Source: Fidelibacterota bacterium (lineage in GTDB: Bacteria; Fidelibacterota; UBA8477; JABMPR01). Taken from it: DNA of 64,000 nucleotides. The notes below the pieces were generated by a model, which was not told the origin of the DNA, did no database searches, and saw only the letters and a list, made by a program, of their open reading frames with translations. The stretch spans positions 1 through 64,000 of the forward strand of contig JABIFG010000082.1 of NCBI GenBank assembly GCA_018650795.1, in the 5' to 3' direction. Positions 50,207 to 54,115 of the stretch are shown here, in pieces. The number at the start of each line of letters is the position of its first letter. Positions within the stretch are counted from its first letter, which is position 1. Both the position numbers and the translations under genes were made by a program.

Positions 50207-51313
50207 GTGAAGACAAATAGAAAAAAATTAACTCAACTTATTATTATTGTTCTCCTGGGATCTCTGATTCTGGGTTGCAGCGGGATTCAGCATGGCAAAG
50301 CACTTGTTTTTAAAAAAGTGAATCGTGCTCAGCTCCTCACAGATGCCGCAGTAGCCTATCGTACCGGGGATTTTGATAAGGCAGGTCAATACTATAAAAA
50401 GGCACTCATCCACAATCAGGATGATGCGGTAATTGCCTATAACCTGGCCTGTTGTTACGCACTCCAGGGTGACGCCAGTAATGCTGCATTATTTGTTACT
50501 CACGCCTTCGAAAATGGCTTCAGGGGTCTGGCAATCTTTTTTGAGGACAAAGACTTTGATCCTGTTAGAAAGGATCCAGAATTTCAGAAGGCAACCCAGA
50601 AAATTCAAGAACGTTTCCGGTCCATTGGCACCAAAGATTATGTGGAAGCTACCACACTCCAGCCCTATCGGATTCGTTTTCCCAAGGATTATGATGCCAG
50701 CAAAAGTTATCCGCTATTGATTGGGATGCATGGGATGGGTGGCAATTCTGAAGGGTTTATCAGCCATTATGATAAGCTGGAAAATCCACAGGTAATTTAT
50801 GTAACTCCTGAGGGGCAATATCCACTGTCCATGCATGTTGGGCCACAATGGCATCGACGTACATGGTCTGTCACAGATGTTGGCAATAAGGCCTGGAAGT
50901 CCGCTGATAAAATGGTCAGCAACTATATTTTAAAAACGATCAAGAAGGTCTCAAAAGAATATAAGGTCTCAGATGTCTATCTCATGGGGTTCTCACAAGG
51001 GGCAGTCTATGCCTATACCATTGGTCTCCAAAATCCTGATATGATCAAGGGCGTGATTGGATTCAGCGGGTATCTCATGGATACTGAAGGAGATAAATCA
51101 ATTCTTACTCAACAGGATATTGAGGAAGGGAAGGCAGTACGACTATTTATTGCACATGGTATTGATGATGCTGCTATTAAGGTGGAGACCGCTCGCAAGC
51201 TGAAAGCTATGTTTGAATCTCAAGGTTTCGATCTGACCTATACAGAGTTCGAGGGGCGTCACGGGATCGAGGCAGCTATTTTCAATGATGCTGTAAATTG
51301 GATGCAATTATAA
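50207..51313 (+). CDS. Lipoprotein alpha/beta-hydrolase (esterase) with TPR-like N-terminus
   Basis: A 368-residue envelope protein starting at GTG 50207, after AGGGAGG. The signal peptide ends in a lipobox LILGC, with Cys near residue 24. Residues about 40-125 are TPR-like (AYRTGDFDKAGQYYKKALI, AYNLACCYALQGDASNAALF). The alpha/beta-hydrolase domain has YPLLIGMHGMGGNSEGF (oxyanion region), the nucleophile elbow GFSQGAVYAY and a terminal His in GRHGIE, like phospholipase/carboxylesterase family enzymes. It likely hydrolyses an ester at the periplasmic side of a membrane. Substrate unknown. Confidence 0.87.
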   Translation: MKTNRKKLTQLIIIVLLGSLILGCSGIQHGKALVFKKVNRAQLLTDAAVAYRTGDFDKAGQYYKKALIHNQDDAVIAYNLACCYALQGDASNAALFVTHAFENGFRGLAIFFEDKDFDPVRKDPEFQKATQKIQERFRSIGTKDYVEATTLQPYRIRFPKDYDASKSYPLLIGMHGMGGNSEGFISHYDKLENPQVIYVTPEGQYPLSMHVGPQWHRRTWSVTDVGNKAWKSADKMVSNYILKTIKKVSKEYKVSDVYLMGFSQGAVYAYTIGLQNPDMIKGVIGFSGYLMDTEGDKSILTQQDIEEGKAVRLFIAHGIDDAAIKVETARKLKAMFESQGFDLTYTEFEGRHGIEAAIFNDAVNWMQL

Positions 51314-51349
51314 AAATTTCGGGGTTCATTCTAGGTTGAATGAATACAG

Positions 51350-51384
51350 GAAGCCACCTCTCGGGGTGGCTTCTTTGGTTTTCT
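51350..51384 (+). terminator. Rho-independent terminator of the esterase gene
   Basis: GAAGCCACC and GGTGGCTTC pair over 9 bp around a 6-nt loop, followed by TTTGGTTTTCT, 36 bp after the stop. Confidence 0.88.
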
Positions 51385-51392
51385 AATGGGTA

Positions 51393-51737
51393 CTAGGAAT
51401 GAACCAGAAGACTCTGTTTAAGAATCTTTTGACAATAGACGTTTAAGCTTTCTTCAGCTCCTAAAGCTTTGATGGCCAGAGCTTTATGTAACTCTGGATC
51501 GATACGAAGTAAAAATTTACCTGAGTAAGTCTTCCCGGCAGTACCAGGGGGTAGGACCAGTGAGTCTCGTTTATAGATTGCGATCCATTCATCAACGATA
51601 TCACATAATTCTAGATATACCTTATGCTCATCATCTCCATGGCAGCATTTTCCAATCCAACCAGGAACAGACCCTACATAGCATTGATCAGCTTCTGACC
51701 AATCTACAATTTTAAAATATTTGTCATGATCTTTCAT
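51393..51737 (-). CDS. hicB: HicB family antitoxin
   Basis: A 114-residue protein. The N-terminal ~60 residues are the partly degraded RNase-H-like HicB fold (YFKIVDWSEADQCYVGSVPG, CHGDDEHKVYLELCDIVDEW). The C-terminus is an Arc/CopG-like ribbon-helix-helix segment (GKFLLRIDPELHKALAIKAL, ESLNVYCQKIL) that should bind the operator. It overlaps the end of hicA by 4 bp at ATGA, so this is a normal toxin-first hicAB order on the minus strand. It should neutralise HicA and repress the pair. Confidence 0.9.
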   Translation of the reverse strand: MKDHDKYFKIVDWSEADQCYVGSVPGWIGKCCHGDDEHKVYLELCDIVDEWIAIYKRDSLVLPPGTAGKTYSGKFLLRIDPELHKALAIKALGAEESLNVYCQKILKQSLLVHS

Positions 51738-51928
51738 GAGCGGGAGACCTCAATTTGTTTTGCTACCAGCTTTTCCTGATAGGGTTTTGCATAAGTTCCA
51801 CTCTTACCGGACAGCGTCAAAATTACGCCCCTGGGGTGAATGAAGTTCCGATGACTGCCCTTTCCGCCTCTGTCTACAAACCCGGCTGCCTTTAATTCAG
51901 CGATGAGTTCTCTAATTTTTCCTGGTAT
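51734..51928 (-). CDS. hicA: HicA family toxin with non-canonical start (ATA)
   Basis: The minus strand between hicB and recQ reads a HicA protein: PGKIRELIAELKAAGFVDRG, then GKGSHRNFIHPRG with the catalytic His, and SGKSGTYAKPYQEK, ending SRS with the TGA overlapping the hicB ATG. HicA relatives of this type begin MPGKIRE, but here the first codon aligns with ATA (51928-51926). No ATG, GTG or TTG lies between this point and the upstream in-frame stop at 51952. That stop is the recQ TAG, 24 bp before. The mRNA interferase could be made by coupled reinitiation on ATA, by stop readthrough from recQ, or not at all. About 64 residues. Confidence 0.78.
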   Translation of the reverse strand: MPGKIRELIAELKAAGFVDRGGKGSHRNFIHPRGVILTLSGKSGTYAKPYQEKLVAKQIEVSRS

Positions 51929-51930
51929 AG

Positions 51931-51952
51931 CTATGATACTACTATGATACTA
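51931..51952. repeat. 11-bp tandem duplication between recQ and hicA
   Basis: CTATGATACTA occurs twice head to tail (51931-51941 and 51942-51952). The second copy on the plus strand contains the recQ stop codon. The repeat fills the space where a hicA ribosome site and start would be expected. Confidence 0.9.
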
Positions 51953-54115
51953 CTGTTGCAATAGCAAATACAGTCGTATAATTTTCAATTCTTCATAACT
52001 GACTCGCTCATGCAGGGCTTCATAAATTGGGCGAAGGGCTGTTGTTCCATGCTGCGCGAAAGACTTTTGTGCAGCATGTTGTTCCTCTATAGACAATTGA
52101 GATATCTCCAGAAAATTTTGGCTAAAAAGTAAAGGATTTCCCTCCGAACTAAACTTGTATAAATGATCAACAATGGTCTTCACTTGCACCTGGAATTCCT
52201 CTGTGAGCTCTAAAATTGATGAACCCGCGTTAAATTTTTCACCCACAACCTGATGGCGTGGTTTGCCAATCCTTTTAGTCCCCGGTATAGATTTCCCACT
52301 AGTCTTCTGCTTTGGTGTTTCAGCCAATTGATTAGCCTGGCAGAACTCGGTAATTTTCTGTATAAAGGGATCAGCATATTTAGCAAACTTCACTGAGCCA
52401 ACACCATGTAATTGCATCATAATTTCTTTTGTTTGAGGGAAATAGACAGCCATCTCTATCAACGTTTTGTCTGGGAAGATCACATACGGTGGTACCTTGG
52501 ATTGATCAGCCATATTTTTACGCAAAGTCCTCAATATACCAAATAGGTCTGAATCATATTTTTGCTCTGTTTTAGGCTGGGGGCGAATATCCTGCTGTGC
52601 CTCCAGTTTGGCTGAAATACTCTCATTGCCCCTCATTACAGCCCAGGCTTTGGCCGTTAATTTGAGGCTACCGTGTTGCATGTCCTGGGTCAAGAGTCCT
52701 TTCTGTACAAAATTTCTAGAAAGAAAAAACCACTGCTTTTTTGAGAGTTCTTTTCCAATACCATATGTAGAGAGATCGTGGTGGGCAAATTTCTTGATTT
52801 TCTGAGACTTTGAACCTCGTAGAATGTCAATAATATGACCAGCCCCAAAAATTTCTTTGGAGTGTTTGACACAGGACAAAAATTGTTGCGCTGGAATTGT
52901 CACATCCACAGTGGGTTGAGCTTCTGATAAACAGTTATCGCACATACCGCAATTTGTTCCGGGGTAGTCCTCTCCAAAATATTCCAACAGGGGGATGCGT
53001 CTACAATCTTCTGTTTCAGCGAAACCAACTAGCGCATTCAACTGGGTTGTAGCAATGACTTGTTCACCAGCTTGCTTCTGTTGAATAAAAAATTTGATCT
53101 TGCGAATATCGCCATATCCAAAAAGGAAAAGACAATCTGCTCGGAGTCCATCTCTACCAGCCCGGCCAATTTGCTGGTAATAGCTTTCAATATTGCTGGG
53201 TAGGTCGAAGTGTAAAATAAACCGAACGTTGGGTTTATTAATTCCCATACCAAAAGCAATGGTTGCAACCATGATTTGAGTGTCATCACTGATAAAACTG
53301 GCCTGGTTCAGTTGACGTACTTCATTGGGGAGTCCTGCATGATAAGGTTTTACGGAATAACCTTCTTCTTCGAGAAACTCAGCCATTTCGTCCACTTGTT
53401 TTCGAGAGAGACAGTAAATTATGCCTGATTGATTAGGGAATTTTTCAAGAAAAGTGAGGGTTTGTTGGGCAGATTGAGATTTTTGTTTTATCTCCAGAAA
53501 GAGGTTTTCCCTATTAAAACTGGCCACAAAACTGGCCGAAGCCTCAAACTGAAGCGATTTTCTAATGTCTTGCTGAACCCGCTGGGTAGCGGTTGCGGTT
53601 AAAGCCAGACACACTGCTTCAGGAAATTTATTTCTGAGATTCATGAGTTGACGATATTCCGGCCGGAAATCATGACCCCATTCACTAATACAGTGAGCCT
53701 CATCAATCGTAAAACAGGATACTTTTTGGGAGGCGAGTAGCGCAAGAGTCCTCTCCATGAGTAGGGTTTCAGGAGCCAGATAGAGCAGACGCACTTTATT
53801 CTGCCGGATGGCTTCGACATTTGTCCGATACTCATCTCTTGATAAAGAACTATTTAACATACGTGCTTCAATGCCCAGGGCATCAAGCTGTTTTACTTGA
53901 TCTTCCATGAGTGAAATCAGAGGGGAGACGACAATAGTCAATCCCTCAAAAAGCAGTGCTGGTATTTGGTAGCATAGAGATTTCCCACCACCCGTAGGCA
54001 TAATGCAAAGGGTATCTTTTTTATCAATAACATTTTGAATCACCTCTTTTTGCAAGGGGCGGAATTCATCGTAACCAAAGATTTCCTTGAGAATTAAGTG
54101 GGCATCTTTAATCAT
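51950..54115 (-). CDS. recQ: ATP-dependent DNA helicase RecQ
   Basis: A 721-residue helicase. Walker A PTGGGKS is at about residues 40-46. The Walker B DEAH box is in FTIDEAHCISEWGHDFRPEY. Motif VI is QQIGRAGRDG. The zinc-binding region has CRRIPLLEYFG and CGMCDNC, then an RQC winged helix, an HRDC domain near residues 520-600 and a C-terminal helical part, also seen in longer RecQ proteins. It unwinds DNA in recombination and repair. Its TAG is in frame with and 24 bp ahead of the aligned first codon of hicA. Confidence 0.95.
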   Translation of the reverse strand: MIKDAHLILKEIFGYDEFRPLQKEVIQNVIDKKDTLCIMPTGGGKSLCYQIPALLFEGLTIVVSPLISLMEDQVKQLDALGIEARMLNSSLSRDEYRTNVEAIRQNKVRLLYLAPETLLMERTLALLASQKVSCFTIDEAHCISEWGHDFRPEYRQLMNLRNKFPEAVCLALTATATQRVQQDIRKSLQFEASASFVASFNRENLFLEIKQKSQSAQQTLTFLEKFPNQSGIIYCLSRKQVDEMAEFLEEEGYSVKPYHAGLPNEVRQLNQASFISDDTQIMVATIAFGMGINKPNVRFILHFDLPSNIESYYQQIGRAGRDGLRADCLFLFGYGDIRKIKFFIQQKQAGEQVIATTQLNALVGFAETEDCRRIPLLEYFGEDYPGTNCGMCDNCLSEAQPTVDVTIPAQQFLSCVKHSKEIFGAGHIIDILRGSKSQKIKKFAHHDLSTYGIGKELSKKQWFFLSRNFVQKGLLTQDMQHGSLKLTAKAWAVMRGNESISAKLEAQQDIRPQPKTEQKYDSDLFGILRTLRKNMADQSKVPPYVIFPDKTLIEMAVYFPQTKEIMMQLHGVGSVKFAKYADPFIQKITEFCQANQLAETPKQKTSGKSIPGTKRIGKPRHQVVGEKFNAGSSILELTEEFQVQVKTIVDHLYKFSSEGNPLLFSQNFLEISQLSIEEQHAAQKSFAQHGTTALRPIYEALHERVSYEELKIIRLYLLLQQ

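Follow-up and report, generated by a model that had tools for sequence, protein, structure and literature searches.

Probable recent loss of the HicA toxin through its start codon in a chromosomal hicAB module behind recQ of a marine bacterium

What becomes of a toxin gene whose reading frame is otherwise regular and whose first codon is ATA? This question is raised by a hicA gene lying behind recQ in an uncultured marine bacterium of the Candidatus Neomarinimicrobiota, represented by a metagenome-assembled genome in which window-type hicA and hicB are each present in a single copy (the window being the whole stretch of 64,000 nucleotides analysed). The three genes recQ, hicA and hicB follow one another on the minus strand (table 1), and recQ matches RecQ domains. 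The HicA frame matches the PF07927 profile across the whole domain (E = 1.6e-9; 38.2 bits for a cut-off of 27), and H26 of the G-S-H motif, the catalytic histidine according to the HicA literature, is present in the window and invariant in relatives. The hicB ATG (51737) overlaps the hicA TGA (51736-51734) as ATGA, and HicB matches PF05534 (E = 1e-11), i.e. the RHH class, with a weak UPF0150-like match in its N-terminal part. An Rfam search of the recQ-hicA junction returned no known RNA element.

Table 1. Features of the recQ-hicA-hicB locus, with positions in the window.
Feature	Position	Strand	Remarks
recQ	51950..54115	-	the 11-bp repeat opens with its TAG (51952-51950)
Candidate -35 TTGCAA	51956..51961	-	relatives have TTGACT, TTGTAA or TTGACA at the same distance from the -10
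Two exact head-to-tail copies of TAGTATCATAG	51952-51942, 51941-51931	-	11 bp apart; putative HicB (RHH) operator
Candidate -10 TATCAT	51933..51938	-	spacer of 17; four bases upstream of the hicA ATA
hicA	51734..51928	-	64 codons; first codon ATA; residue 46 Tyr, near-invariant Asp elsewhere
hicB	51393..51737	-	open frame; ATG start; C-terminal RHH domain; GAGG ribosome-site core 10 bases upstream
Terminator-like hairpin	51348..51375	not assigned	between hicB and the convergent gene 50207-51313

The first codon of hicA (51928-51926, minus strand) is ATA, and the frame is open from there to its TGA. After the in-frame TAG of recQ, the codons read TAT CAT AGT AGT ATC ATA GCT ATA CCA GGA: ATG, GTG and TTG are all absent between this TAG and the HicA frame on the minus strand of the window, and the first canonical start within the frame is a TTG located 3' of the conserved GSHRNF motif. 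The window sequence thus bears out the first-pass annotation, which had described hicA as lacking a canonical start and sitting in frame behind the recQ stop.

To place this codon in context, starts were tallied with one row per locus, for alignable starts only, over 51 loci from many phyla retrieved by a contig scan and ten loci outside the genus retrieved by a search of the phylum. The 57 other alignable loci start with ATG (48) or GTG (9), including the four same-genus genomes in which hicAB lies directly behind recQ, where the aligned codon is GTG (G006) or ATG (G011, G012 and G013). The only exceptions to ATG or GTG are the window and a locus of Geobacter sp. L1geo (ACG), and a usable start for HicA is missing from the window alone among intact alignable loci. 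Relatives with ATG at the position of the ATA, which the first-pass annotation had named as what would refute its observation, do exist within the genus and behind recQ; they confirm that the frame had been read correctly and that the change to ATA is specific to this lineage. Bacterial initiation at AUA is possible, but its efficiency is low. AUA is listed as a rare, non-canonical start codon discriminated against by IF3 (PMC4611024), and among 61,358 ancestral AUG starts in 36 genome groups, where annotation seldom permits AUA, zero switches to AUA were reported (PMC5622118). Judging from the relatives, the loss of the start codon is genuine and specific to this lineage, in a hicAB module that is in other respects ordinary.

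The sequence just upstream of hicA is an exact tandem repeat of 11 bp that includes the recQ TAG. This much of the earlier description stands, but the repeat had also been taken for a duplication replacing the ribosome-site region, and that part does not hold: relatives display the same boxes and have no ribosome site either. Neither a chance duplication nor a lineage-specific one is compatible with the presence of the boxes in relatives, where they form a conserved element. Indeed, self-identity at lag 11 upstream of hicA reaches 0.434 in 26 loci with RHH-type HicB outside the genus, versus 0.287 (s.d. 0.015) in shuffled sequence, and this signal is absent at loci whose HicB has no RHH part. 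Nine held-out loci of the same phylum gave 0.452 versus 0.318 (s.d. 0.027), with a less clear -35/-10 assignment in most of them.

A promoter-like site accompanies these boxes. At many loci, relatives share a layout consisting of a TTGACA-like hexamer, 17 bases, TATCAT or TACTAT, 4-7 bases and then the start codon. In the window, the corresponding TTGCAA-17-TATCAT-4-ATA, whose -35 box is formed by the last two recQ codons (TTG CAA), would on its own be a match within chance in a simple scan; it carries weight because relatives share the layout. A promoter score of at least 9 out of 12 was obtained for 24 of 49 loci (2.7 expected from shuffled sequence), and a score of at least 8 for 29 of the 31 loci with RHH-type HicB versus 0 of 17 others (Fisher's exact test, 4e-11, a value too optimistic for loci that are related). 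In RHH-type loci from several phyla, paired boxes 11 bp apart are thus found directly 5' of hicA, usually with a sigma70-like promoter. Most likely, the paired boxes are the HicB operator and the promoter of RHH-type hicAB modules, with HicB predicted to bind there, and the position of the promoter suggests a transcription start that most likely coincides with the hicA start codon or lies close to it.

Ribosome sites are distributed unevenly between the two genes. Among the 31 RHH-type loci (from L001-L005 and L019-L066), a Shine-Dalgarno core was found upstream of hicA in none and upstream of hicB in 21. In the nine held-out loci (from L079-L092), neither gene displays such a core, so that the hicB ribosome site is not a universal trait. 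Loci with a short HicB have no operator, and a hicA ribosome site is often present there.

These features suggest how the module may operate. The promoter would overlap the two-box HicB operator, and the transcript would begin with the hicA start codon or only a few bases away from it, with no Shine-Dalgarno sequence. From this promoter, HicA would be produced poorly, as from a leaderless mRNA, or not at all, and HicB, often provided with its own ribosome site, would be produced well and would in turn shut the promoter down. Translation of leaderless mRNAs depends on a 5'-terminal AUG, and in E. coli only AUG works well at this position (PMC4611024); the window ATA would thus be expected to silence HicA on such a transcript, its synthesis being abolished or nearly so. 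Since operator, promoter and hicB all remain, HicB is probably still produced in the window, as a self-limiting repressor with no toxin left to neutralise.

The substitutions accumulated in the two genes bear on when such a loss could have occurred. At HicA position 46, for which the window has Tyr, 49 of 50 relatives carry Asp, the exception being the broken copy of G011; Glu is found there in one held-out locus. Among the 50 other frames, only this broken copy and one further locus (L058) have at least two near-invariant HicA positions broken. Matches to the solved structures 1whz, 5yrz and 4p78 were weak and partial and did not convincingly reach residue 46, and give no role for it. Start codon aside, the window hicA has undergone 8 silent changes and 2 replacements since its split from G011, whereas the broken G011 copy counts 6 silent changes and 18 replacements (Fisher's exact test, p = 0.006). 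Under simple assumptions, the neutral share of the window branch is at most about 10-21%. The window hicA was accordingly under constraint for most of this branch, and any loss must be recent.

On the window branch, hicB has acquired 7 replacement changes against 6 silent ones. Five of the replacements affect the N-terminal, toxin-binding part, among them a change to Ala of Glu16, which is almost invariant in relatives; small as the numbers are, they hint that selection for toxin binding has been relaxed. As HicA Asp46 and HicB Glu16 have both changed in the window, a co-adaptation of the two residues was considered. It was rejected as not required, because at locus L034 the HicB residue has changed and the HicA residue has not.

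The state of the same module in the genus also points to decay. Sister genome G011, whose recQ tail is 84% identical to that of the window, shares with it the TAG and the 24-base recQ-hicA spacing; its hicA (466-657 of locus L005) keeps its ATG and is interrupted by three stops, and its hicB (657-987) is interrupted by one stop and has suffered a deletion. An alteration also affects the second operator box. In G007, hicAB is reduced to a scar behind recQ (locus L073, about 1790-1950) made of a single 11-bp box and the initial codons of hicA, followed by a deletion reaching to the shared terminator. Divergence within the genus is similar for the recQ core (about 82%) and for HicA and HicB (80-86%); this similarity disfavours a horizontal replacement of hicAB and makes vertical inheritance, with an old presence and repeated losses, the simpler history.

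The explanation that we consider probable is a recent inactivation of hicA, through loss of its start codon, in a chromosomal type II hicAB module in which hicB and the operator have been retained. Of the options put forward by the first-pass annotation, toxin loss with hicB kept is the best supported, the start change being confined to the window, a near-invariant residue being altered and hicB being open. Against it, hicA has an intact frame beyond its first codon, retains the catalytic His and has mostly silent changes, as would also be expected if ATA works. Indeed, weak synthesis of HicA from the ATA (or from an ATC or ATA just upstream), with the start codon setting a low toxin dose, is the alternative that deserves most attention, even though we regard it as unlikely. 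It is further consistent with exact operator copies and a promoter-like site in the window, and with the listing of AUA among rare bacterial starts (PMC4611024). However, wherever the start of another intact locus could be aligned, it is ATG or GTG, the predicted transcripts begin with the very codon that in E. coli has to be AUG for good initiation, no Shine-Dalgarno site is available to help initiation at ATA, and Asp46 has been lost from the window HicA. A functional HicA initiated at AUA on a leaderless or nearly leaderless transcript, with the start codon holding the toxin at trace level and HicB still regulating the promoter, appears somewhat less likely again. Recent loss would fit all the substitution data, and a functioning AUA start would fit all of them except residue 46.

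Two other explanations find little room beside recent loss. The ATA could stem from faulty sequencing or assembly, or represent a minor allele of the metagenome-assembled genome, as it involves a single base in a draft assembly of 355 contigs; but the contig is 84 kb long, the hicA frame is otherwise clean, and the same gene carries an independent replacement at a near-invariant residue, making an artefact improbable. Finally, readthrough of the recQ stop or reinitiation behind it, which had been proposed to yield a RecQ-HicA fusion or a HicA coupled to RecQ, is very improbable. The recQ stop is indeed in frame with hicA, 24 bases upstream, in both the window and G011. However, in G006 hicA does not share the recQ frame, and in G013 two in-frame stops lie between the genes; a readthrough fusion would require one leaky stop and a frame relation maintained among relatives, and as this is absent the fusion reading is removed. 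Reinitiation has no positive evidence in its favour: recQ-hicA spacing varies among lineages, there is no Shine-Dalgarno site, and the identical upstream design occurs in distant phyla.

Comparison with characterized modules clarifies what is specific to this layout. The hicAB module of E. coli (Turnbull and Gerdes 2017), as related in PMC7167474, PMC6957337, PMC10865869 and PMC11594946, has promoters P1 and P2; the accounts in PMC7167474 and PMC6957337 describe the transcript from the HicB-repressed promoter as truncated at the hicA ribosome site, hence giving HicB only. As in E. coli, the toxin gene comes first, and the predicted promoter may lie too near hicA to allow HicA translation. In contrast, the E. 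coli HicB has an HTH domain and hicA has a separate upstream promoter, whereas HicB is of the RHH type here, and at window-type loci neither a hicA ribosome site nor a second promoter was found. Window-type layout would thus predict either an E. coli-like outcome, with HicB only, or a leaderless hicA that is poorly read. In Yersinia pestis hicA3B3, an RHH-type HicB binds its own promoter, the main site overlapping the -10 box (reviewed in PMC11594946). The window module resembles it in its RHH-type HicB and in two operator sites, which are predicted here from sequence. However, in Y. pestis the promoter is flanked by operators in the form of 15-bp inverted repeats, compared with two boxes placed head to tail 11 bp apart here, and hicA3 and hicB3 are 174 bp apart, whereas the window genes overlap. 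Leaderless toxin-antitoxin modules of Mycobacterium tuberculosis likewise form operons without a 5' leader (PMC3898074); starts were mapped there by RNA-seq, whereas the transcript start is a prediction in the present module, which also has the toxin as its first gene.

According to a 2024 review (PMC11594946), a promoter serving the antitoxin and not the toxin has been shown among HicAB modules only in E. coli. The more general finding is that, in RHH-type hicAB of several phyla, a shared putative operator and promoter abuts the toxin start, leaving no place for a ribosome site. Such a conserved switch would generalize the toxin-sparing promoter of E. coli hicAB and predicts that the principle is common, which is directly testable.

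As for the window itself, the hicAB pair is probably caught at an early stage of decay, in which the toxin would be disabled first and the antitoxin and its switch survive; the order of events is given by comparing the window with a sister in which both genes are broken and a cousin that retains just a scar. Damage to hicA is shared with the broken copies of G011 and of Geobacter sp. L1geo (locus L066), the latter also keeping an open hicB and an intact operator and promoter. Those copies contain stops or a frameshift, whereas the damage in the window is limited to the start codon and the residue change. The Geobacter copy (about 2960-3530 of L066), with its ACG and frameshift, is an independent case. 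A further degenerate hicAB was found in a metagenome-assembled genome of Deltaproteobacteria (3001-3465 of L067), with a frameshifted hicA without a start and a truncated hicB.
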